Assembly: GCF_001202025.1 (NCBI RefSeq)
Contig: NZ_LGHS01000075.1
Coordinates: 1-41,989, forward strand
Direction of reading: 5' to 3'
DNA: 41,989 nucleotides
Source: Pseudorhodobacter aquimaris
GTDB lineage: Bacteria; Pseudomonadota; Alphaproteobacteria; Rhodobacterales; Rhodobacteraceae
Below, piece after piece: positions 10,191 through 36,300 of this stretch (the first letter of the stretch is position 1; every line of letters starts with the position of its first letter). The translations under genes were made by a program, and so were the position numbers. The notes beneath the pieces were generated by a model. The model was not told the origin of the DNA and did no database searches. It saw nothing but the letters and a program-made list of their open reading frames with translations.

Positions 10191-10453
10191 CAGACCCGGA
10201 TCAAACTTCGCCAGCATCGCTGCGGGTCACCATTCAAGACCTCCGATCCGCCCGCTATTGCCTCGCGGGCGTGCGCCCTTGGTTTCAAAGGCATGGCTTT
10301 GATTGGCAAGAGTTCCTCGATCACGGCATCGCGTCCGAGCGATTGCACAGCACCGGCGATGCGCTGATCGAACCCGTAATCCAAGAGGCCAAGACACGGA
10401 TCGCGGCAGGGTTGGTGTCAGGACGTCCGGAGGCGCAGGGTGGGCGGAAGTAG
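10187..10453 (+). CDS. Small conserved tail-operon protein
   Basis: An 88-residue protein starting at GTG within the stop of the preceding gene (GTGA). The sequence contains VTIQDLRSARYCLAGVRPWFQRHGFDWQEF and ends in a Gly/Arg-rich tail, a type regularly seen between the hub and tail-tip genes of Rhodobacterales prophages. No membrane segment or enzymatic motif is seen. The function is unknown to me. It ends 14 nt inside the tail-tip gene. The frame is intact. Confidence 0.7.
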   Translation: MTDPDQTSPASLRVTIQDLRSARYCLAGVRPWFQRHGFDWQEFLDHGIASERLHSTGDALIEPVIQEAKTRIAAGLVSGRPEAQGGRK

Positions 10454-13400
10454 CAAGTCTCAAACCGTCGGCTATCGCTATTCGCTGGGCGTGCATCTCG
10501 CGCTTTGCCACGGACCGGTGGATGCGATCCGCGAGATCCTCGTCGATCGCCGCACGGCCTGGTCTGTCACGACGGGCGGCAACTTCAGCGGCGGTGGCGC
10601 CGCCGTCGAGACCCGGATCGGCACCGTTGCAGGCCTATCCGCAACGGAAGCTTTGGCAGGCGACAGTGGTGCTACGATCACTTTCCCGTGGATGCGCGCA
10701 GGCGTGCGCGTCGGGCGGGATTACCGCCTCGCCCTAGCGAACGGCTCCAGCCAGACCATCACGCTGCAAAGCGTTGCCTATGATGCCGCGACCAACATAA
10801 CGCGCTGGACCGTCCTTCCCGAAGCCTTGAGCCTGCCCGCACAATCGGTCGTGGTGTTTGAGGCCACGACAGGGACCAGCAACGCAGGGGCTGGCGGCGG
10901 ACGTATCCGCATCGATAAACCCGATCTCTTCGGAGGCGAAAGCCGCGAGGGCGGTATTGTCGGCGATGTCGATGTCTTGATGGGCGGTCCCGGCCAGGGC
11001 CCGAACGACTATCTCGCCGCGCGCATGGGCGGCGATGTACCCACCTACCGTGGGCTTTGCAGTCTGGTGTTGCGCCAAGCCTATCTTGGCATCAACCCCT
11101 ACCTCAAACCCTGGGCCGTCCGCTTCACCCGGGTGCTGACAGGCGAGGCAGGTTCACCGCAATGGTACCCAGAGAAGGCCGCCATCGTCCCAGAGGCGAA
11201 TATCTCGGATGCCGCGATCTACATTGCCCTCGACGTCTCGGGCTCAATGTCGGGCACCCGCATGGCAGCCCAGAAGGCAGGCGTGGCAGCCCTGATCCGC
11301 GAGATTGGCGCCAGTGTCGATCCCGACCTGCCCAATGACATCCGCATTGTGCTCTGGAACGTTGCCGTCGCCGGATCGGTTGAACGGCGCGGCATGGGCT
11401 CGGAGGATTACGCGGCCCTCGAGAGCTGGATGCTGGCGCTGCCCAATACCACCTCGGATGGCACCAGCTTTGATGCGGCGTTCACAGATGCCAGCGCCTT
11501 CTTCGCAGGTGGCGGTTCCAAGCGCCGGATCGTGATTTTTGTGACTGACGGCGAACCCTCGCCCACCTCTTCCGTCGAGGCAGCCCTCGTCCTCATCCGC
11601 ACCCTGCCCCCCACCGACATCTTCGGCTTTAACATCGCGCTCACGAACACGACCTACACCGCACGCATCGACAACACGCCCGTTGACGGCGTGCCGGTCA
11701 TCCCGCCCGGCAATCCGCAAGCGCTAGTGGCCTCCTTGCGCGGGGCGTTTGGCAATGGGCCGGACATGAACCCGGCCCATATCATCCGAGAATGCCTGAC
11801 CAACCGCGATTGGGGTCTGGGCTATTCCACGGTCGAGATCGGGGTGAGTTTCACGGGGGCTGCGGATGCGCTCTACACCGAAGGATTCGGGCTGTCGCTG
11901 ATCTGGCAGCAAGACAGCTCCATTGATGCGTTCATTGGCAGCATTCTAGATCATATTGATGCCACGCTGTTCATCGACCGGCGCAGCGGGCTTTGGGAAT
12001 TAAAGCTCGTCCGGGCCGATTATGCGGTGGCCAGTATCCCTGTGTTCGACGAGACCAATGTGGTCGATTGGGGCCGCCTCGGGCGCCGCTCGCCTGCCGA
12101 TCTGGTCAACAGCGTCACCGTCAGGTTTACCGATGCCTGGACCGACGACACCGGCGCTGTCAGCGTTACCGATACCGCCCGGGTGCAGGCCATGGGCGAA
12201 GTGCTGGCCACCACGCTTGATTACCCAGGCATCCGCTATCAGGGGCTGGCCGTACGCGTCGCCGAACGCGACCTGCGCGCGCTCTCCGCCCCGCTGCTGG
12301 CGGGTGAGATTGTCATCAATCGCGAGGGTGCGAGCCTTGGGCCGGGCGATGTGATCCTGGTCAACTCGGCGCGCCGCGGGATTGCGGATGTTGTTATGCG
12401 CATTTCCGAGATCGACAGGGCGACGGGCGCGACAATGGCATCCGGCTCAAGATCGCCGAGGATGTCTTTGCGCTGGGTGCAACCGCAATCGCGGGCGGAC
12501 GACAACCAAGCGGCAGCGGTGTCGCCGCCCCGCCGCGCACATTGGCACGCCGCATGGTCGAGGAAGCCCCTTACTGGCTCTTGGTACGCGAGTTGGGCCA
12601 TAGCGAGGTCGACCGCATCCTTGGCGAGGATCCCGGTGCAGGCGCGCTGATAGCCACTGGCGAGCGCCCAAGTGCGGACGCATTGGCTGCCGAGCTGTGG
12701 GTCAATTCCGGCACTGGCCCTGCGCAGGAAGGTGTGGTCGCCTTCGCGCCCACGGCCCTGCTGGCCGCGGACCAGCCCGATGATCCAGAGGTGCGCGTGA
12801 TCGCAGTGACCGGCTGACGCGATATCGGTGAGGTTGGCATCGGCACGCTGGCCGCCTTAGGCGGGGAACTTGTTCGGGTCGACGGGATCACGGCCACGGC
12901 GATCACAGTTGGGCGCGGATGCCTCGACACTGTTCCGCGCGCGCATGCGGCCGGAACGCCCGTCATCTTCTTTGACGAGGTGGCCCGGATCACCGAAGAC
13001 GCATGGGCCGCTGGCGAGACGCTGGCCGCACGGCTGTTGCCCGAGACCGGGCGCGGAACACTGGCCTTTGCGCTGGCACCCGAAGACATCCTCACGCTGG
13101 ACCGCCGCGCGATCCGGCCCTTGCCGCCCGGCCGCGTGCAGGGCAATGGCAGCTACACCCCCAATGTGGATGCGCTGATCATAGGTGATCTGCTGCTCAG
13201 CTGGGCGCATCGCGACCGGCTAACCCAGACCAGCCCGGTGATCACCGATCACACGGCCGCTTCCATCGGGCCAGAGCCAAGGGTGCGCTACAGCATCGAG
13301 GTCCGATGGATCGACCCGGACACCGGCATAGCCATTCTGCCTGCGGGCATCGTGATTGATGCGGGTCTTACCAGCAGTTGGACCCTTGCTCCGGATGATA

Positions 13401-21895: not shown

Positions 21896-24391
21896 TCATA
21901 TTCCCAAGCGTCGAGCGTGTTCATTTAGCCTCCTGAGTTGGGGGTCTTCTGTCAACGCTGGCCTCGTCTGCGCTATTGAACTCAAACATTGCCTGAACTC
22001 ATCGGAAAGGTATGGCTGATCCTTGATGATGATACCAAGAAACCTCAGGGCATCCTCCGGAAACTGACTGCACAGTCCGCTCTCGTGCAATCGATGCATA
22101 ACGGAGTGTGGGTGTCGGATTGGGACCAGCCAATCCTCGACGGTTTTCAGTGCTTCTGGAAACTCTGATCCGGCCGCAATGCTGAGCCGAGCGAGGTCTT
22201 CTGCGATCCCCTCAGTGACAAGGTCGCGCGATTTCGGCCATACGTGCTGCCAGAACGGCAGGATGCGATTTTTCCAGTATTCCTTTCGCTGATCGCCCGC
22301 TCCTTCAAGAGCTTGCGCTAGCGCGTCTGCCCCCACCTCAAGCCCCTCCTGCGGCAACAACGCAATAACGGCACTGAACTCCTCCCTAGAGAAGTTCTGA
22401 TTGGGCTCTAGCGACGCATACGTCAGAAAGGCAGCTAGCTGCTTGGCCTGTGCGCCCAATACTGCGTAATGCTGAGCAGTACTGAGGAACTGTGGTTTGA
22501 GTGCGTTCAACAAAGGCCAATATAAACGGGGCGACCAAAGGAACCCACTCCACACAGCCCTTGCCTGCGCCGGTGAGGCGTCCCAATCAAATAGCGGCAG
22601 CAACCTTTGTTCGGCCCATGGCCTATCCACACGGAAAAGCGCAATGGATCGCGCGCCCAGCAACACTCTACCATGACGGAATTGATCCACATCAACATCG
22701 CATATTGGCGTGAGAATGCGCTCGATGTCGTCGGGAAGGTGGTCGTCGTCATTTGGCGCGCCCTTGAGCCAGAGATTGAGAACAGCTTGGGTGACGTGCC
22801 CAATCGGATGATTGATCGCTGCTCCTATTGGATCATCTGCTTGCTCATCATCCGGCTCAATGCCTGAATCAGCATCACGGTGCATTTCCAGTACGCGTCG
22901 GCAGAGCTCGAGAAGGATGGCCTCATGTTGGTTGATCGATTTAGAAACAGCTTCGAGCCACCATGTTACCTGGCGAACGAGCTTCACTAGCACATCATCA
23001 GGCATGGCTTGCACCAGCGAAGCGCCGTATCGCCAAGATCGCAGGGTAAGTCCTTCTCCGCTCCACGATTGAAGCGCTTCCCTCCAACGGATCTCCGGCC
23101 ACTCTCCGTCACGCGCCAGTTCACAGAGCGCGGTAAGGCTAAGAGAGAGACGCGTGCGGCAAATTTCCCGCCACATATCCTCATAGAAATGGTAATCGTC
23201 GGGCACTGGCTGTCTCAACCACTGAACAAGTTCGCTACGTTTGGAGGGTGCGATATCGATCTCTTGCCGGTCTTCGTCGTCCGGGTCGCCGGTGCCACTG
23301 GTCCAAATCGAGAACTCATCACGCTCATTCGGAGCTAACTCCCACACTGAATGCGCGCGCGACAAATCCTCAAAGTGCAGCGAAGCTTCCGCCCCGAGCG
23401 CGATGCCGGATGCGCTCAGCTTGGCCAGCCGTAGCCAGACCGAACGATCCTTCAAGTCAGCCCACTGCTCAGGTTCAAGATCATCGCGATAATTTTGGCG
23501 AGAAGGGCCGGCCAAGATAGCCATTTCCAGCCTCTTCTGCGCAGGTTGGGTCAAATCCCCCCCACGCAGTACAAGAAGCTGGAGCACCTCACGCATTAAG
23601 CTAGGAGACCAGAGCCACCAGGAATCGTCCGCCAAGAGCCAATTCACCCATAGCTCAGAAAGGATACAGTCGTTCTGGGCCGCTGCGAAAAAGGCCAAAC
23701 GTTTGAATGTCGGGTACGGAACCTCAAACCATGTTTTTGCGATCTCACTGGCTCTGGCGGGGTCTTCATTTCGAACGGCCAACCATGAGTCTCGCAGTAG
23801 CTCGATCAGAGTCACCCAACCGCGCAGTCCACGATTTTGCCAGTGCGGACTTATGGACGAAAGGTCCCAGCTTGATCGATCTTTGTACTCGTCAGCCTCG
23901 CCTAACTCTTGCATAATATCCAAGCAGTCGATCAGCAGTTGCCGAAAATCATCAATCAATTGAGGTAATAGTGCCAGCCAGGACTTGTCGTCTGCTAAGT
24001 CGCGGAGGGTTGAGCTCACATCATCGGCCGCCAAGACAAACTTGCAGTCCAATATTTGACCGACGCTAGAGGGCTCACCGCTTGGTTCGGGTTCATCTCC
24101 CCATCTAAATCGTTTGGAAAGCTTAACTTTTGGCGTCAGAGCATCACGCAATTCCATTCGAAGAGTGGCACTGATCCCCTGTTGCGTCAGGCGATTTCTC
24201 CAATCGTATAGATCGCGCTGTCTCCAAGGTGATTTTAACCGACCGTTAAGAAGTAAGCGCCAAAGCGTTCGCATTACCGGTCCAGGGATCGCGTTTGCTG
24301 CATTGACGCGAATATTGTCAGTTCTGCTACCTTGCCTTCCCTCTCCAAACTGTTGTGGCGCATCAATTCGTGTTGGACTAGCAAAGACCAA
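21896..24391 (-). CDS. C-terminal helical part of a split SIR2-domain defence-type protein
   Basis: Open for 831 codons. The authentic part begins at about NIRVNAANAIPGPVMRTLWRLLL. The first 26 residues are probably out-of-frame read-through of the upstream part. The protein is long, Trp- and Leu-rich and all-helical, with an acidic segment (IEPDDEQADDP) in the middle. No catalytic motif is seen. Its N-terminus overlaps the SIR2 gene by 118 nt in another frame. Joining the frames at about 24319, as if one C had been lost on the plus strand, gives one continuous protein of about 1,276 residues. That is the layout of large defence-associated sirtuins, in which the helical part senses phage. Confidence 0.75.
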   Translation of the reverse strand: MVFASPTRIDAPQQFGEGRQGSRTDNIRVNAANAIPGPVMRTLWRLLLNGRLKSPWRQRDLYDWRNRLTQQGISATLRMELRDALTPKVKLSKRFRWGDEPEPSGEPSSVGQILDCKFVLAADDVSSTLRDLADDKSWLALLPQLIDDFRQLLIDCLDIMQELGEADEYKDRSSWDLSSISPHWQNRGLRGWVTLIELLRDSWLAVRNEDPARASEIAKTWFEVPYPTFKRLAFFAAAQNDCILSELWVNWLLADDSWWLWSPSLMREVLQLLVLRGGDLTQPAQKRLEMAILAGPSRQNYRDDLEPEQWADLKDRSVWLRLAKLSASGIALGAEASLHFEDLSRAHSVWELAPNERDEFSIWTSGTGDPDDEDRQEIDIAPSKRSELVQWLRQPVPDDYHFYEDMWREICRTRLSLSLTALCELARDGEWPEIRWREALQSWSGEGLTLRSWRYGASLVQAMPDDVLVKLVRQVTWWLEAVSKSINQHEAILLELCRRVLEMHRDADSGIEPDDEQADDPIGAAINHPIGHVTQAVLNLWLKGAPNDDDHLPDDIERILTPICDVDVDQFRHGRVLLGARSIALFRVDRPWAEQRLLPLFDWDASPAQARAVWSGFLWSPRLYWPLLNALKPQFLSTAQHYAVLGAQAKQLAAFLTYASLEPNQNFSREEFSAVIALLPQEGLEVGADALAQALEGAGDQRKEYWKNRILPFWQHVWPKSRDLVTEGIAEDLARLSIAAGSEFPEALKTVEDWLVPIRHPHSVMHRLHESGLCSQFPEDALRFLGIIIKDQPYLSDEFRQCLSSIAQTRPALTEDPQLRRLNEHARRLGI

Positions 24392-25725
24392 CGTTCGTGA
24401 AGCTTACCGCCCCGTTGTACGATCCAGATAATCAAGTCTGGGTCGTTTAAGTGTCGGAGCAGCCAGCGCGCGAGGTGAAACATCACGTCGTCCCATTGCG
24501 AAATCTCGATGCCTCCCGAAACCAACATCATTGATGGCGCGAGCGGATAAGGCGCCGGTCGACGAACGAGACTAAACTTAAGTTTGCTATCGCATTTGAG
24601 GAGTGTTGGCACGCCGAAGCGAGGAAGATCTGCCTGTTGATAACGCTCATCAGAGAATGCATCGAGTAGCCAATCTAGCGAGGGCACAGGGTTAAACTCG
24701 GCGAATCGTTTTGCTGGCAGCCCAGATGGGTCAGACAGTGCCCATAGCATCCTGCCAACAAAGTCATCTTGGCGTGTGCTGGCTGACGGACGTGCAAGCG
24801 CGTGGGTTACGACTACCTTTTCTTTGCCAAGCACACCGTCTCGATAAGTTTCTGACCAGACATGCAAAGTTTTATGAAGAGCCGAGTGGTCAAGGCTGCC
24901 AACCGGGACCTCGTACAGGATAGGCGTCACGCCTTTGGCTTCCCACTCAATGGTCTTCGCAGGCTCCTGCCCAGGTTCGCAATCGCCCAGGGCCCAAGCC
25001 TGTGGGGTGCTTTCACCCAGCATACGGTCAGCGGCCAATGCATCCATCATGTAACGCAAAACTGGATCATTGATGCTGTAACCAACGAAGCAGACCGAGT
25101 AATTTCGGAACAACTCGCTTACAAAACGGGCGGCCCATCGTTCGGTGAGGTAGGCTAGGCCGAAGTCACCGCTTGTAATTACAAGTCGGTTGAGCGCAGC
25201 TTCATCAGCTTTTTTGGGCAGCGAACCATGCAGGTAGATCAGCCCATTCCAACGGCTGTTCTTCGGGATAGGCAGCATAGGAGCGGAGTATGAATTAAAC
25301 TGCTGTCCACCACGTTTCGCCGCTACTTCAAACACGCCATCGAAATTAGTGGTAACCAGCCGCAGAGCGCCTTCGCGGCTGCGCGCAAGTTGAAGCAAAG
25401 CCGTATGAGTGTCTGTCGCCCCCCTACGGCGCAGTTTTGGCTTCAGCGATTGTGCTAAAGCATTTCGCACGGCGAAGCGCTGACCTGGCAGGCGCCTTTC
25501 GAGCAAGTCGAGCGTGGCATCGTACTGGCCACGATCATACGCATCCTGCTCGATGGGCGACCTTCTGGTCCCAGTGTGTTTGTAAATCTGTTCTACGAGG
25601 CCTTTAAACCCCGGAAGGCCTGCGAGGTAAGAAATTCCAGCGCCGCAAAAAAAGACCAGACGGCCCTCCTCCTGCGCTTGCAGTAGCTCATCCGGTATAT
25701 CTGGCCCCGCAGAAATGAACTGCAT
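24274..25725 (-). CDS. SIR2-domain NADase part of a split defence-type protein
   Basis: A 483-codon frame with a good site (GAGAGGG). The N-terminal 280 residues are a SIR2 domain: FFCGAGISYLAGLPGF (Gly-rich loop, residues 26-40), TTNFD (Asn127, Asp129), LHG (His166) and GYSINDPVLRYMM. The catalytic Asn and His are present, so NAD+ hydrolysis is plausible, as in defence sirtuins that kill infected cells by NAD+ depletion. Residues about 300-465 link to the helical part. The last 15 residues (SMQQTRSLDR end) lie past the frame switch. It is downstream of the WYL regulator on the same strand. Confidence 0.85.
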   Translation of the reverse strand: MQFISAGPDIPDELLQAQEEGRLVFFCGAGISYLAGLPGFKGLVEQIYKHTGTRRSPIEQDAYDRGQYDATLDLLERRLPGQRFAVRNALAQSLKPKLRRRGATDTHTALLQLARSREGALRLVTTNFDGVFEVAAKRGGQQFNSYSAPMLPIPKNSRWNGLIYLHGSLPKKADEAALNRLVITSGDFGLAYLTERWAARFVSELFRNYSVCFVGYSINDPVLRYMMDALAADRMLGESTPQAWALGDCEPGQEPAKTIEWEAKGVTPILYEVPVGSLDHSALHKTLHVWSETYRDGVLGKEKVVVTHALARPSASTRQDDFVGRMLWALSDPSGLPAKRFAEFNPVPSLDWLLDAFSDERYQQADLPRFGVPTLLKCDSKLKFSLVRRPAPYPLAPSMMLVSGGIEISQWDDVMFHLARWLLRHLNDPDLIIWIVQRGGKLHERWSLLVQHELMRHNSLEREGKVAELTIFASMQQTRSLDR

Positions 25726-25952: not shown

Positions 25953-26945
25953 TCACGGCAAGACATCAACATCGCCACGCCGCACCCTCTCCAAAATTAC
26001 ACGCAGTTCAGGCGGGGCCAGAACCTCGACCGCCCTGCCCCATGAAACCAAGTGCCAAGCCATTTCCACCCATCCGCTCGCGCTGAATTCAACCAGCAGG
26101 CTGCCGTCCGGCAAATCGCTCATCACCTGGTTTGGATGGAACCGGAAGTCGCGGGCGACGGGCGCAGCGCTAGGCGCAAAGCGCCAGCGGACGGGCCCGT
26201 GCTCGGCTTCAGAAAAGAATGACCCGAACGATTGCGCGCAGTGGACGTTGATGCAGAAGTTCGGGTCGCGCGCGAAGCCCTGCCCCGTCACAGCCATTTC
26301 GCTGATCCGATCAAACCGATACTGACGAATCCGTCGGTCCGGCGTCGTGTCTCGCGCCACAAGGTAATGCCGGGTGCCAAGGATGACGCCATAGGGTTCG
26401 ACAACCCGCTCGCGGGGTGCGTCATCGCGCGCGCTCCGGTACGTCATGCGGATTGACATCGGCGCGATGAAAGCCTCGAACAATAACTTCAGATAATACG
26501 GTGATGCCTGACTCGCTGGCCCGGGACGGCACGCGAACCCATTCGCCTCGAGCATGACCTCGGAACTCACTTCGGCCGACCGAGCTTGTGTGGGCGGCGC
26601 GGACGCGAGGAGCCGGTCGCGCATCTCCGTAAGAGATTTGACCTCGTTCGCAGCCCCGTCTCGATCAGCCCTGCGGATCGCCAGATCCAGCGCAGCAAGT
26701 TCACTGTCGCGAAACCCACGGTGGCGGATGTAATCAACATCGCGCAGGGACCACCAGCGGCGGCGTTCATCATCCGTCACAACATCAATCCGGGGAAACA
26801 CGTCCTCCAGCGCACGTGCCATGCGTCGGGCCGTCCGCTCATTGACGGCAAACTCCGCCATGATGTCGCGCAAGCTTACGCCTCGGTAGCGCGCCTTGGC
26901 CATTTCGGCCAATCGGAACAGGTCCTGCGCCTTGGCGAATGACAT
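25953..26945 (-). CDS. WYL-domain transcriptional repressor (BrxR/CapW-like)
   Basis: A 330-residue protein starting at 26945, where GGGAG lies 10-15 nt upstream. A longer form would include the palindromic operator. The N-terminal winged helix (AKARYRGVSLRDIMAEFAVNERTARRMARALE) is followed by a WYL domain (VVEPYGVILGTRHYLVARD, IRQYRFDRISEMAVTG) and a C-terminal WCX-type region ending with LERVRRGDVDVLP. This is the architecture of BrxR and CapW, which repress defence operons and respond to a nucleic-acid or nucleotide signal. It precedes the SIR2 gene on the same strand, so control of that gene and of itself is likely. Confidence 0.85.
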   Translation of the reverse strand: MSFAKAQDLFRLAEMAKARYRGVSLRDIMAEFAVNERTARRMARALEDVFPRIDVVTDDERRRWWSLRDVDYIRHRGFRDSELAALDLAIRRADRDGAANEVKSLTEMRDRLLASAPPTQARSAEVSSEVMLEANGFACRPGPASQASPYYLKLLFEAFIAPMSIRMTYRSARDDAPRERVVEPYGVILGTRHYLVARDTTPDRRIRQYRFDRISEMAVTGQGFARDPNFCINVHCAQSFGSFFSEAEHGPVRWRFAPSAAPVARDFRFHPNQVMSDLPDGSLLVEFSASGWVEMAWHLVSWGRAVEVLAPPELRVILERVRRGDVDVLP

Positions 26946-26954
26946 GGTGAATAT

Positions 26955-27001
26955 TCTCCCTCTGATTGCGCAAGGGGTAAGCAACTTACCCCATAGGGAG
27001 A
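26955..27001. promoter_or_regulatory. Nested palindrome, likely WYL repressor operator
   Basis: The inner inverted repeat GGGGTAAG-CAA-CTTACCCC (26974-26992) lies inside an outer pair TCTCCCT/AGGGAGA (26955-26961 and 26995-27001). It sits just upstream of the WYL gene, in the gap to the divergent gene at 27142. BrxR and CapW bind inverted repeats at this position. Confidence 0.65.
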
Positions 27002-27141
27002 TTAAACAGGTCTTACGCCAATGCGAATCAAAAATCACGCTGTTTCAGTGATTTCGCCGATCAGCAACGACGCCAAAAGCTTAACACCCGCTGCCAGGCT
27101 CTGCTCGATCTGGCCGGCGGTCCTTGAAGGAGGATTTGAGT

Positions 27142-27753
27142 ATGGGCCTGCCACAACGTGTTTTTTATCCTGTTCACGAAACCGCTGCACGCTGGGGCTG
27201 CACGGTTTCCGACATCGCTGGCTGGGCCGCGATGGGGATGCTCAAGTTCATTACGGGCATTCCGCCTATCGCGTGTGACGAAGTGCGCATCGCTGGGCTG
27301 GTGCAGATCGAGCCCGCGGATATCTTGCCGATGTTCAGGCGTTGTGGGACTGGTCCGCAAGAAGCGTATTTGCGGCGTGTGCGGCAACTCGAAGGAGAGG
27401 ACTGGCTCTATATCACCGCCCCCGAGGAGGGCGTACTGGTCTCGATCGGCGATCTGATGATCCTTGGCCATGAAGTGCAGCGTTTTGAGGACATCAACAA
27501 TCTCTTCGGCCGTGTCGCCGAAGGCGCTGGGCTTGGCGACGATGGGGACTACGACTGGCCCGGGATGAGTGTTGAGATCACGCGCCGGGTGTTCGAAGAG
27601 GGCTTGCCCAAATCCCAGGCCGAATGGATCAGGGAGTTGCAGGACTGGTTCGCCGCGCAGTCGGAAACCGGGGAATTTCCAGACGAGCGCTCGATCCGGC
27701 GGCGATTGTCCCCGTTCCTCAAAGCCGTGAAGTTCAAGAACCCGAAACGGTAA
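27142..27753 (+). CDS. HTH-containing protein of integrase-adjacent type, function unknown
   Basis: A 203-residue protein with an excellent site (AAGGAGG, 8 nt before ATG). Residues 7-35 (YPVHETAARWGCTVSDIAGWAAMGMLKF) look like a helix-turn-helix of the excisionase/MerR-like type. LPMFRRCGTGPQEAYLRRVRQLEG is a recognisable alphaproteobacterial pattern, and the C-terminal half is acidic and helical. It is divergent from the WYL gene and converges with the integrase, overlapping its end by 20 nt. It may be a regulator of the element. I do not know an assigned function. Confidence 0.65.
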   Translation: MGLPQRVFYPVHETAARWGCTVSDIAGWAAMGMLKFITGIPPIACDEVRIAGLVQIEPADILPMFRRCGTGPQEAYLRRVRQLEGEDWLYITAPEEGVLVSIGDLMILGHEVQRFEDINNLFGRVAEGAGLGDDGDYDWPGMSVEITRRVFEEGLPKSQAEWIRELQDWFAAQSETGEFPDERSIRRRLSPFLKAVKFKNPKR

Positions 27754-29053
27754 GATGTTTCGCGCCAGCGCGCTGGCCAGCCCTTGATGGCGGGCTGGCC
27801 GCAGCAGCGGGCCGATCTGCGTCATGAACCAGCCGTGGCTTGGGCTTGAAGGCGTTGGCCACGGCATCGACGCCCGCGCGCAACGGCGAGTCCATCAAAT
27901 GCGCATACCGCTGGGTGGTTTGCATTTGACTATGACCCAGTAACTTCCCGATCATCTCAAGCGAGGCACCACCGCTCACCAGCAGCGATGCAAAGGTGTG
28001 GCGCAGGTCGTGGATGTGCACGTCGGGGATGGCAACCTCGTTCTGGATCCGTGCCCAGAAGCGGCGGATTTCCTGCACGGGCTGGCCGGGCGTGTCGCCC
28101 GGAAACAGCCATGGCGAGCCGGAAACCACCGCAAGGCGGCGCTGGCGCACGATGGCCGCCGCCTCGTCCGAGATTGGCACGCGGTGCACGCGGCGCTGCT
28201 TTGTCGTTGTGGCGGGCTTGGTCCATGACAGATGCTCGAGGTTGAAATCCTCGAACCGCGCCTGTCGCACTTCCCCCACCCGGGCACCGGTCAACATGCA
28301 AAGCCGAATGATCCCGGCAGCGCGGTCGTCCTCCGCCGCATCCAGCGCCGTCGCTAGGCACGCGATTTCCTCTTGCGAGAGATACCGCTCGCGCGGCGTT
28401 TCCATCCGGCGGCGAAACCCCGTCGCGGGGTTGTCGTCGCGCCATCCCCATTTGACGGCATAGGCGAACATCTTGCGAACGACCTCGCCGACACGGTTGG
28501 CGCGGACGGGTGTGAGCTTGGCACCCTGCAACTTGCGCGCGCGGTTGTTGGGCTTTTGCTTTGACGGTCGTGCGCGCCCCTCCGCGACCTTGTTCAGCAG
28601 CAGTTCTACATCATAGGCGCTGACTTCAGTTACCAGCATCCGGCCCCAAGCTGGTGTGATGAACTTCTCCATCATCGATCGCTGATCGGAGGCGTTGAGC
28701 TTGGCGAGATGCGTCAGATGCACATCGACGTAGCGGGCGATCAGATCTGCGATGCGGGGCGCTTCCCGCAGGGCGTCGCGGTTCGCCAGAGGATCGCCCC
28801 CAGCATCAATGTCCCGCCGCAGTTCCTTGGCGCGCGTGCGCGCCGCCGACACGCTCCATTCCGGCCAACGGCCAAAGGTCATGCGGCGCTGCCGACCCGC
28901 ATAGCGATAGTCGAGCGTGAAGGCGCGGCCACCGCCGCGATAGATGCAAACGGCAAAGCCGCGCACCTCTGTGTCAAAGATCTGGTAATCCCGGCCCTCC
29001 GCAGGCTCGGCATCGCGTACGATCACTTCCGTCAGTTTCTGTCTGTTCACCAT
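27734..29053 (-). CDS. Tyrosine-type site-specific integrase
   Basis: A 439-residue recombinase. An N-terminal arm-type domain (DYQIFDTEVRGFAVCIYRGGGRAFTLDYRY) is followed by a SAM-like core-binding domain and the catalytic domain with TGARVGEVRQ (first Arg), HDLRHTF (His, Arg), LLGHSQMQTTQRYAHL (His, Tyr). All catalytic residues are present. The C-terminal tail is Ala/Arg-rich and extended. The start at 29053 is chosen because GAGAGG lies 7 nt upstream; a TTG 6 nt earlier is too close. It probably integrates the right-hand element, possibly in the fMet tRNA. Confidence 0.9.
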   Translation of the reverse strand: MVNRQKLTEVIVRDAEPAEGRDYQIFDTEVRGFAVCIYRGGGRAFTLDYRYAGRQRRMTFGRWPEWSVSAARTRAKELRRDIDAGGDPLANRDALREAPRIADLIARYVDVHLTHLAKLNASDQRSMMEKFITPAWGRMLVTEVSAYDVELLLNKVAEGRARPSKQKPNNRARKLQGAKLTPVRANRVGEVVRKMFAYAVKWGWRDDNPATGFRRRMETPRERYLSQEEIACLATALDAAEDDRAAGIIRLCMLTGARVGEVRQARFEDFNLEHLSWTKPATTTKQRRVHRVPISDEAAAIVRQRRLAVVSGSPWLFPGDTPGQPVQEIRRFWARIQNEVAIPDVHIHDLRHTFASLLVSGGASLEMIGKLLGHSQMQTTQRYAHLMDSPLRAGVDAVANAFKPKPRLVHDADRPAAAASPPSRAGQRAGAKHLTVSGS

Positions 29054-29124
29054 CAGCAAACCTCTCTCTTGCCCCTGTCATGACGCGTAGATCGGGCCGT
29101 CTATCAAGCAGAGCATGGCGCTGG

Positions 29125-33602: not shown

Positions 33603-34634
33603 TCAAGTGTCCAAGAAGTCCCACTCTTCGCCCATGACCCACCTCAGCGCACTCAACTTGCCGTTGATCATGCCCCATTCGAAATCTTCGAACGGTCCTA
33701 GAACCTCGGGCCGATCGTTGTACTTATGGCGCACCCGTTCACCGGCCGCGCGCAAGGTCGCTAGGTTGCCTTTGGTGATCTTTGTTTGATCGTATGGCTT
33801 GTCCTTTGGCATCTCGTCGGTGACCTGGATTTCTCCGCTATCGATTTTTTCCATATTGTACACGTGACGGGTGTACCAGACTTGATCCCACAGGAAAGCT
33901 ATTGCCTCGTTGATCTCTGAAGATACACGCGGATCGTCCGGAATGTAAAAATCGTCAAAAGCTCCTGTCGGATCTAAGTCTATCATCAGGTTGCCAAAAT
34001 AATCACCGATGTCTGTGGCGAAAACTGAGCGTACGCCGTCGAAGTAGTAAGCGATATCTGGATGAGGTTTGCTCTTGTCGACCTTGGCATGAGTGAAATC
34101 GTCCGTATTGCTGGTGATGAAGGCAAAGCGGTGATCTTCGTGGGCGCTTTCTTCGACAATCTCATAGTAGGTCTCGAGAATTACGGCGTCCGCGATCCCT
34201 GTCTTGTGGTACGGCGCTACTCGGTCCAGGCCACGGGTGGCAGCCCTAGACCTAGCGATGACGGAAGGCACCAAATGGGTCGCCTTTGCCATGATTTCTT
34301 CGACCTTGGACAGCGTTTCGTCAACTGCGTCCCCGTGCATGTGCATCTTCTGCTCAACATCGAGAATACCTTCAAGAATTGCTGCGGTGTCGCCAGTTCC
34401 AAACTGCTTGATCGTCGCTCGCACGCGCTTGAAATGGTCTTTTCGGCTCGTTTTGGCGGCCTTCATGACGCGGTCCCTGTTGCGTTCGAACTCGGCCTGC
34501 ACAACGTCAGGCACCATGAACTCGACCTCGCACTCGTCGACCGTGCTCTCCATGCGGTGGAGCAGGGGAAGGTTGCGATAGTCTCCCGCTAGGTTGAGCC
34601 AGACACAAGTGTCGAGAACAATCCGAACTGTCAT
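33603..34634 (-). CDS. PIN-domain (DUF4935-like) nuclease of a two-gene module
   Basis: A 343-residue protein. The N-terminal 185 residues are a PIN-like domain: VLDTCVWLNLAGD (first Asp), an acidic middle (VQAEFERNRD), GIADAVILETYYE (second acidic pair) and ITSNTDDF (late Asp), so the metal-binding set of a ribonuclease is present. The C-terminal part (about 215-343) is helical and unassigned. Its ATG overlaps the stop of the DUF4062-SIR2 gene (ATGA at 34631-34634), so the two are coupled and probably act together. Toxin-antitoxin PIN proteins are shorter, about 130 residues, which argues against a simple VapC. Confidence 0.8.
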   Translation of the reverse strand: MTVRIVLDTCVWLNLAGDYRNLPLLHRMESTVDECEVEFMVPDVVQAEFERNRDRVMKAAKTSRKDHFKRVRATIKQFGTGDTAAILEGILDVEQKMHMHGDAVDETLSKVEEIMAKATHLVPSVIARSRAATRGLDRVAPYHKTGIADAVILETYYEIVEESAHEDHRFAFITSNTDDFTHAKVDKSKPHPDIAYYFDGVRSVFATDIGDYFGNLMIDLDPTGAFDDFYIPDDPRVSSEINEAIAFLWDQVWYTRHVYNMEKIDSGEIQVTDEMPKDKPYDQTKITKGNLATLRAAGERVRHKYNDRPEVLGPFEDFEWGMINGKLSALRWVMGEEWDFLDT

Positions 34635-35929
34635 TGTGCGGTAGATTTTTCGAACGACAGTAGGAAGTCATCGGCAGTACCAACACATCCTATCAGTTCA
34701 AATCGTCCACGGATTATGTCGTCCATCGGATTGGGCGTGAGGGACAGATATATACCTTTTCCGTTTCCGCGTCGCTTGAGGACTTTCCGGGCATTTTCGT
34801 CTCGGAGCGAATGGCCGATGACCACCACGGGTCGGTCACCTATCGCGGCCGCGATAGTGTCCCAATACGGCCCATTAGCACGGACGCGGGCAGCGTCGTC
34901 TTCTGTTATTATGAGGCTACCAGGGCACGCAATCGACCCGTCTATTTTAAAGATGGTCAGATCCGTGCCTTCGCCCAGTGTTGCTCCATTCGAATGGAGC
35001 ACCGTGTGAGGGATACCTTTCTCAACTGCGGCACGTTCGAATAAATCGTCGTAGTTTGTCGTGACGATGTGGCGGAAACTCGACACCGCGGCGAGATGGC
35101 CGGGGGTCGGGATGACCCCCTGCGCCATATCGAAAGCTTGGACCACCGTGCGTTCGAGTTCTCTTCGACCGTAACGCAGTTCCAAGGCGGCCGCCACGTC
35201 GGCGAACCTATGTCGCCCGAGCAGCTGATCGCCATCTACGCCAAGAGACAGACGCGCACCAAAAAGTTCGGTCATCACTGCCGCCGTTGGCAATCCCGCA
35301 GGCGCTGAAATGCCGGCGCCGACGAATAGCACGGGGTCATGACCGACAAAACCAGCAGGAATGGATACACGACCTAAAGCGGCATTACTCGAGGTGATTG
35401 GTGCGAAACTCTGCGGACGGGTCCGCGATGTAAGTTCCTTGAGGACGGAACCTTGGAAAAGGTCGAGTAGCGCATCTGCTACCGCTCGCTCAAGGTCATC
35501 ACTCCATTTGAATTCCTGCCGAAACCTACCAGCTCCCCACTCTGCGATCTCGCGCCTGAAATTGTCGCGGGCGTTCGCATCGAGGGTACCACGAGGCGAA
35601 TCATAGTTCAGAGACTTGAAGAACGGCAGTATCGGCAGATCGAGTGTCTTTGCGTGCATGACTTCCATGTGAGTGACCGACCTGCCCTCACCGGCGCCGG
35701 GACCGGAGTCGGGTATCCAGCCATACGTCTCCCCGCTAATCAGGACGAATAGATGGCTACTATCGATCTCAGAACGGATAACCTCCCAGCTCGTGCCGCC
35801 GTCTGGATGCATTCCCTCTGCGTTGACTGGCTCCAAGTTAAGCGCAATCAGCCTCTTGATGACCGCCCGGCGCGCATCACCTAGATCTCTCATCGTGCTG
35901 CTAACAAATACTCGAAGTTTGGTGGACAT
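34631..35929 (-). CDS. DUF4062-SIR2 fusion protein, putative phage-defence sensor/effector
   Basis: A 432-residue protein from ATG 35929, with GGAG 8-11 nt upstream. Residues 4-110 are a DUF4062 (TIR-like fold) domain: KLRVFVSSTMRDLGDARRAV, HLFVLISGETYGW, SVTHMEVMHA. Residues about 195-425 are a SIR2 domain with LFVGAGISAPAGLP, TTNYDD (Asn292, Asp294) and IGHSLRDENARKVL. The catalytic His found in KxHG of active SIR2 enzymes reads KIDG (Asp330), so hydrolysis may be lost or altered. That would suit a nucleotide sensor feeding the coupled PIN nuclease. No system name is known to me for this pair. Confidence 0.8.
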   Translation of the reverse strand: MSTKLRVFVSSTMRDLGDARRAVIKRLIALNLEPVNAEGMHPDGGTSWEVIRSEIDSSHLFVLISGETYGWIPDSGPGAGEGRSVTHMEVMHAKTLDLPILPFFKSLNYDSPRGTLDANARDNFRREIAEWGAGRFRQEFKWSDDLERAVADALLDLFQGSVLKELTSRTRPQSFAPITSSNAALGRVSIPAGFVGHDPVLFVGAGISAPAGLPTAAVMTELFGARLSLGVDGDQLLGRHRFADVAAALELRYGRRELERTVVQAFDMAQGVIPTPGHLAAVSSFRHIVTTNYDDLFERAAVEKGIPHTVLHSNGATLGEGTDLTIFKIDGSIACPGSLIITEDDAARVRANGPYWDTIAAAIGDRPVVVIGHSLRDENARKVLKRRGNGKGIYLSLTPNPMDDIIRGRFELIGCVGTADDFLLSFEKSTAQ

Positions 35930-36300
35930 TGGTGCACTCCTACGACCTCCAGACACAGGGGATTGGCACTCGTGTCAAGGCGTTCGGATAGCTATTCTCG
36001 TCTTGAGCTCTAAACGCTGGGGAGTACTGCGCGCCCAACCTGCTCTTTAAAATGTCGGTGGTAGTCTGCGTCCAGTAAAAGCGAGTACTCCTAGAATGAC
36101 CGAAATGTCCGTAAAGCGAACACTGCTCGTCAAAAATGCCGCAGCAAGCACGGATGACCATTTTGGCGAAGCTGCATTGCAGCGCCTCACCATCAGTAGC
36201 TGGCCGCTCATGGCCGGTAGCGACCGCAGTCCCCCCTGGCATGGTTCCTCCCGGACCTTCAGCGTATACGGGGGGGCTTAGCGCGGCATTTCGCTAGCGC

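Follow-up and report, generated by a model that had tools for sequence, protein, structure and literature searches.

A DUF4062-SIR2 fusion gene and a PIN nuclease gene with a portable C-terminal module, joined by an ATGA overlap in prophage-like DNA of Pseudorhodobacter aquimaris

Do two overlapping genes with defence-type domains, lying among phage genes, make up one antiphage system, or are they separate units that have come to stand side by side? This question is raised by a locus of Pseudorhodobacter aquimaris on contig NZ_LGHS01000075.1 (assembly GCF_001202025.1), of which we analysed the whole stretch of 41,989 nucleotides, here called the window; it is the same as IMG/VR contig IMGVR_UViG_2751185709_000003. 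The features of the locus are as follows.

33603-34634, minus strand: gene 2, open reading frame for P0002, a PIN nuclease-like protein of 343 amino acids
33606-33932, minus strand: portable C-terminal module of P0002, residues 235-343 (about 110), with GKLSALRW near its end
34095-34622, minus strand: PIN domain PIN_12 of P0002, residues 5-180 (Pfam E=7.6e-19, 69.2 bits, cut-off 32)
34631-34634, minus strand: ATGA stop/start overlap between gene 1 and gene 2, read from the sequence
34631-35929, minus strand: gene 1, open reading frame from ATG for P0001, a DUF4062-SIR2 fusion of 432 amino acids
34730-35347, minus strand: SIR2-like domain of P0001, approximately residues 195-400, with N292 kept (Pfam SIR2_2 E=6.3e-18 at 287-386)
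34940-34942, minus strand: D330 of P0001, at the SIR2 His position, in KIDG
35651-35914, minus strand: DUF4062 (TIR-like) domain of P0001, residues 6-93 (Pfam E=4.1e-18)
35663-35665, minus strand: E89 of P0001, the conserved Glu of DUF4062, by alignment to relatives

The initial annotation of this DNA had described two minus-strand genes overlapping by ATGA, and the open reading frames were found exactly there. The ATG of gene 1 is preceded by a GGAG-type sequence, and its open frame has an alternative GTG start at 35956. The pair had also been placed alone between a phage operon and a methylase operon. The neighbours are phage replication, methyltransferase and unknown phage genes, and methylases are present on both sides rather than on one: one flank carries a replication-initiation-like gene, a methyltransferase gene and phrog_9306, and the other has genes for a ParB/methyltransferase protein and for a DNA methylase, all on the strand opposite to the pair. 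An integrase (27734-29059) lies beyond the neighbours of the pair. The pair has a G+C content of 55%, and the flanking stretches have 63.5% and 63.7%; this lower value together with the setting would suit prophage cargo acquired late.

Other genes of the window are of interest in their own right. A homologue of the defence sirtuin Dsr1 (21896-25725, minus strand) is split over two overlapping frames, of which 24274-25725 covers positions 1-470 of the PADLOC Dsr1 model and 21896-24391 covers positions 457-1274; because the two frames cover successive parts of the model, the Dsr1 gene appears broken. Immediately upstream of it lies a gene for a WYL/WCX-domain regulator (25953-27038, minus strand). 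On the far side of the integrase, a 736-residue protein (10440-12650, plus strand) has Phage-tail_3 and VWA_2 matches and is possibly a remnant of a tail or of a gene-transfer agent, the latter being our own idea.

If the two genes formed one defence system, as the initial annotation proposed, they would be expected to travel together, and lack of conserved co-occurrence had been named beforehand as the result that would refute the proposal. In our sample, no conserved co-occurrence was found. A relative of gene 2 was near none of six fusion relatives (0/6); in three of these loci the best tblastn match had a chance-level E of 0.35 (searched at E<=10), and in the remaining three there was none at E<=1. 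An open reading frame with the tail module was likewise near none of the six. In the other direction, six-frame searches with the fusion profile A2 found no matching open reading frame, at E<=1e-5 or at E<=1e-2, in any of the 36 loci with PIN genes that were sampled in addition to the window (21 from plasmids, 14 from IMG/VR and one genome stretch, some near-duplicates, with flanks of 0.1-5 kb per side), with the qualification that this profile misses remote DUF4062 proteins such as P0013 of Methylocystis (L100). The IMG/VR proteins among these were identified as PIN proteins from translations and alignment (12/14 in alignment A5). The exact ATGA join of fusion and PIN gene is a single case, and on these counts the pair was rejected as a conserved two-gene system. 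The accompanying statement that no named system is known to contain this pair agrees with PADLOC, which gives none: P0002 matches no family, and P0001 has partial matches within its SIR2 part only.

What, then, is each gene by itself? For gene 1, Pfam finds both domains, and the DUF4062-SIR2 fusion is as originally described. According to a 2026 preprint (PMC13174449), DUF4062 was shown experimentally to be a TIR-like NADase, named Swarozyc, which provides phage defence triggered by the portal protein; this backs the earlier label "TIR-like". The defence-like character ascribed to the genes is supported as well. The auxiliary domains of Swarozyc are the subject of a supplementary figure of the preprint, and because a SIR2 fusion may be among them, we do not claim the DUF4062-SIR2 architecture as unreported; "SIR2" occurs three times in the main text, in passages that do not mention a fusion. 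The DUF4062 domain of P0001 matches the Swarozyc structure PDB 10wc (E=1.9e-7), and E89 was equated with E97 of KpSwz by hand reading of S-x-T-x-x-E, a place at which the PDB alignment is gapped. The predicted structure of P0001 is a weak model (pLDDT 67, from a 4-row alignment); its top fold matches are the SIR2 NADases KomC, DSR2 and ThsA, and its 50 best fold matches are all SIR2-type NADase entries, with no DUF4062 entry among them.

As the initial annotation had pointed out, the position of the catalytic His in SIR2 reads Asp in P0001. Relatives indicate how general this is. Full-length fusion relatives are carried by three Rhizobiaceae plasmids (66.5, 61.5 and 40.4% identity), and one scan of genome contigs, made with conserved-peptide patterns that distant relatives may escape, added a frameshift-broken relative in Mesorhizobium (68% in the best segment) and relatives in Azospirillum brasilense (44%) and a Candidatus Aminicenantes MAG (39%). 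Fusion carriers, hence, span Alphaproteobacteria and this MAG. In the profile alignment, E89 in DUF4062 and N292 and D330 in SIR2 are invariant in all seven distinct fusions. Among 49 distinct SIR2 relatives without DUF4062, the catalytic position is His in 47, Asn in one and a gap in one, a count that leaves out window repeats, two rows with neither site and L124, a fragment of P0001 that had been listed with the non-fusions as "N,D". The Glu is present in 13/13 distinct relatives that have DUF4062 only. Judged from these alignments, the contrast between Asp in every fusion and His in nearly every other SIR2 relative marks the His-to-Asp change as a fixed trait of the DUF4062-SIR2 fusion and not as decay in a single gene. 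P0001 matches in 9 of 289 genomes of the class, at full length only in the window, and profile A2 in 69 of 398 genomes of the phylum, where, among the matches listed, only that in the window covers both domains. A tblastn search of a phage collection with P0001 gave no match.

By annotation, three of the six fusion relatives lie near other defence-type genes. In L003 and L018 the fusion relative adjoins a SIR2 gene with an ATPase gene behind it; these assignments come from annotation in L003 (SIR2 family, ATP-binding) and from inspection by eye alone in L018 (SIR2-like, HerA-like). A site-specific integrase with an RHE_PE00001 family gene accompanies the DUF4062-SIR2 gene in a Sinorhizobium plasmid (L005) and PIN genes in two Agrobacterium plasmids (L055 and L061), and this setting is perhaps a shared cargo hotspot.

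Gene 2 encodes a PIN protein whose acidic residues had been described as being in place, and D8, E48, D149 and D179 indeed are invariant in 21 aligned PIN rows. Its predicted structure (pLDDT 81, 13 rows) has a PIN fold over approximately residues 2-206, for which VapC toxins rank first in the fold search (best E 0.024, probability 1.00); no fold match reached E<=0.001. The A3 alignment contains 20 relatives with 30-40% identity to P0002. P0002 was found in one of 289 genomes of the class, namely in the window, and profile A3 matched in 4 of 398 genomes of the phylum, two of them at full length. There was no match to P0002 by tblastn in the phage collection, a PDB search with the PIN profile gave nothing meaningful, and a literature search on DUF4935 (PIN_12) returned nothing related to the PIN protein.

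The neighbours of PIN genes in 20 plasmid loci vary by annotation, and no defence gene recurs consistently among them. A nucleotidyltransferase and Cap15 (CBASS-like) stand beside the PIN gene in L054, TcmP in L052, DUF2971 in L057 and an IS256 transposase in L049 (annotation); Shedu in L051 and Abi in L062 and L065 are among the neighbours (annotation or Pfam), and in other cases there is no close same-strand gene. From these variable neighbours and the lack of a fusion nearby, gene 2 appears to be a unit of its own that now and then lies behind other genes, including gene 1. In a Polaromonas plasmid (L058:4050-6041), genes for a TIR protein (ThsB_TIR), 8xMP and a PIN-module protein stand in a tight row, with a gap of 1 bp between the PIN gene and the gene preceding it.

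In the 21-protein alignment, the conservation of the PIN protein at its C-terminus is close to that of its active site, with one row, L061, diverging at this end. In the P0002 model, residues 218-234 fall below pLDDT 50 and form a low-confidence linker before a module that is predicted to be helical (helices 238-266, 288-304 and 317-333). Searching plasmids with the tail returned 48 records, mostly PIN proteins, and also a DUF4062-annotated protein of Methylocystis iwaonis and hypothetical proteins of Rhizobium sp. TH2. The Methylocystis protein, P0013, is a direct fusion, with the PIN tail module at the end of a DUF4062-like protein; its N-terminus matches DUF4062 weakly (21.9 bits, below the cut-off of 24.7) and also matches PADLOC PDC-S60 (E 2.5e-22). 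The Rhizobium locus (L101) encodes three hypothetical proteins with matches to the module, of which that of the third is weak (E 4.6e-5), and WYL-domain-annotated genes lie between them. The tail pattern occurs in 2/398 genomes of the phylum, and among 101 genomes of the order of genome G519 the module matched once, in a PIN gene already known. A PDB search with the module profile gave nothing meaningful (best E 0.73), and a literature search with the motif letters found no paper.

The module also exists by itself. Pattern and profile scans of IMG/VR yielded 25 loci, comprising 15 PIN proteins (window included) and 10 short proteins, of which the module makes up most; nine have 93-126 residues and the tenth, L131, has 160, its open frame running to 218. 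Their phage origin is taken from the IMG/VR label. A profile built from the 10 short proteins matches P0002 235-343 with E=3.4e-26 (0/2000 shuffles), all 21 PIN rows (weakest 1.2e-6) and P0013-P0016, and the PIN-tail profile in turn finds 10/10 short proteins (0/1000 shuffles); the short proteins were collected by patterns containing the shared GKLSALRW, and these E-values consequently overstate independence. The similarity extends over approximately 100 residues, and tblastn with one short protein, L114, finds PIN C-termini and the Methylocystis protein with E down to 2e-22. On the basis of the L114 search and the reciprocal profiles with no shuffle hits, the idea that the module is a chance tail was rejected. 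Pfam had no family at E<=0.1 for six short proteins, PADLOC no match for eight, NCBIfam none for eight of nine (L148 had three weak hits below the cut-off) and PHROGs nothing better than E 0.03 for six; L114 had no tblastn match in the phage collection. For the proteins scanned, no family of Pfam, NCBIfam or PADLOC matches the module above its cut-off. An overlap of 4 bases with the preceding gene is seen in four of the 10 short genes (L127, L138, L147 and L149). The gene before the short gene has HNH_3 (Pfam) in L138 and no Pfam match at E<=0.01 in L126, L127, L141 and L147, and those of L126 and L127 are HNH/homing-like by eye. An AAA_24 gene lies upstream in L148, a HerA gene downstream in L136 and an integrase downstream in L130.

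The pair is probably best understood as two separately mobile prophage cargo genes that happen to share one likely transcription unit here. The six fusion relatives without a PIN gene and the 36 PIN loci without a fusion argue for this, as do the Asp of all seven fusions where 47/49 SIR2 relatives without DUF4062 keep His, the deviating G+C content of the pair and the poorly modelled linker that sets off the module. Less easily accommodated are the ATGA join between genes that show no sign of truncation, a point in favour of some advantage in translating them together, the weakness of the P0001 model with no DUF4062 among its fold matches, and the Methylocystis fusion and the Polaromonas row of TIR, 8xMP and PIN-module genes, according to which TIR-like partners may recur. 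The last two observations and the ATGA coupling are also what speaks for a system that requires both genes: the fusion would sense infection or produce a nucleotide signal and so release the PIN ribonuclease. We find such a system quite improbable: the partner is missing from all sampled loci, distant hosts conserve either gene without its counterpart, and release of the PIN by nucleotide sensing does not sit well with the conservation of the DUF4062 Glu or with PIN genes that are solitary or lie behind unrelated genes. It is highly improbable that neither gene is defensive and that both instead serve the maintenance or fitness of mobile elements. The lack of a consistent defence neighbour in the 20 plasmid PIN neighbourhoods would fit, but Cap15 (L054), Shedu (L051), Abi (L062 and L065) and the SIR2 gene by the fusion (L003) are among the neighbours, and DUF4062 and SIR2 are both established in phage defence.

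Two further alternatives concern the single genes. The SIR2 domain could be a working NADase that uses Asp as an alternative base, with DUF4062 making or sensing the trigger, as a Thoeris in one chain. Asn and Asp kept in every fusion and the fold matches to SIR2 NADases are consistent with this, yet DUF4062 retains its Glu, and solved structures are labelled with the His mutants H171A (DSR2) and H146N (KomC), both of which lose activity; we consider this alternative unlikely. Somewhat less doubtful, although still tentative, is the idea that the PIN is an autoregulated toxin with the module as a built-in inhibitor and the short copies as antitoxins or as decoys with which phages counter defence. 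PIN proteins carry the module at their C-terminus, and it also occurs on short proteins, and four of 10 short genes have a 4-base overlap with the upstream gene; against this, the gene upstream in L138 (HNH_3) is the only one of those scanned with a nuclease Pfam match, and no PIN gene was seen by eye near the short genes among the open reading frame starts listed.

Taking the two genes as separate cargo, gene 1 would encode a Swarozyc-like effector that consists of a single protein. Hydrolysis of NAD+ upon sensing of infection would fall to its DUF4062 domain, a role that we infer from the DUF4062 preprint (PMC13174449) and the conserved Glu. The SIR2-like domain, with its His fixed as Asp and its NAD-site Asn kept, may be a nucleotide-binding, oligomerising or sensing part. 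In terms of sequence, DUF4062 as the NADase and SIR2 turned regulatory seems the best and simplest reading, the opposite assignment being less likely. Gene 2 would be a PIN nuclease, presumably an RNase, carrying a portable C-terminal module, and the short separate module proteins on viral contigs suggest that the nuclease is probably controlled or aimed through binding of the module to a partner from phage or host. More speculatively, a phage small protein may have been captured by immune effectors, or the reverse, and may serve as a bait or docking piece on PIN and DUF4062-like proteins, such that one phage process triggers different effectors; a prophage NADase and a PIN in one unit would then give a double-layer abortive response. 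The fusion offers a natural case of one NADase fold seemingly demoted beside another. The tail domain is the lead most worth following, linking the PIN family and a DUF4062-like protein to short proteins of viral contigs and giving a handle on how the nuclease is triggered or restrained.

Compared with known systems, P0001 is closest to Swarozyc. KpSwz (PDB 10wc; PMC13174449) shares with P0001 an N-terminal DUF4062, the conserved Glu and a single-protein make-up, and relatives of both are found in defence-type settings; P0001 differs in having a C-terminal SIR2-like domain instead of an HTH/winged portal-binding auxiliary domain. The SIR2_2 fold and the NAD-site Asn are common to P0001 and the SIR2 NADase effectors ThsA, DSR2 and KomC. 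Unlike them, P0001 has Asp for the catalytic His, as do all seven fusions, and it was not assigned to these effectors. Thoeris (ThsA with SIR2 and SLOG/STALD, and ThsB) was rejected as well: the PADLOC ThsA match covers only residues 201-386 (46.5 bits), and PADLOC finds no Thoeris or DSR parts in P0001 outside SIR2.

P0002, with the PIN_12 domain and the four acidic residues, falls among the PIN_12 (DUF4935) plasmid proteins, which resemble it in length, PIN residues and C-terminal module, whereas none of those sampled lies beside a DUF4062-SIR2 gene. The PIN fold is shared with VapC toxins; P0002, however, is more than twice as long as the matched chains (123-139 residues) and has a helical insertion and the module. 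VapBC was rejected since the gene just upstream is not of VapB type but the DUF4062-SIR2 gene. A PIN ribonuclease required for phage defence is described for the DefensePredictor systems DS-3 and DS-5 (PMC13092281), both set apart from P0002 by their description, DS-3 by a PIN split between the termini and DS-5 by a partner with an AcrIF4-like domain. Altogether, the locus is ordinary in kind and unusual in detail, combining a Swarozyc-like variant with an altered SIR2 and a PIN nuclease with a domain undescribed in the libraries scanned.
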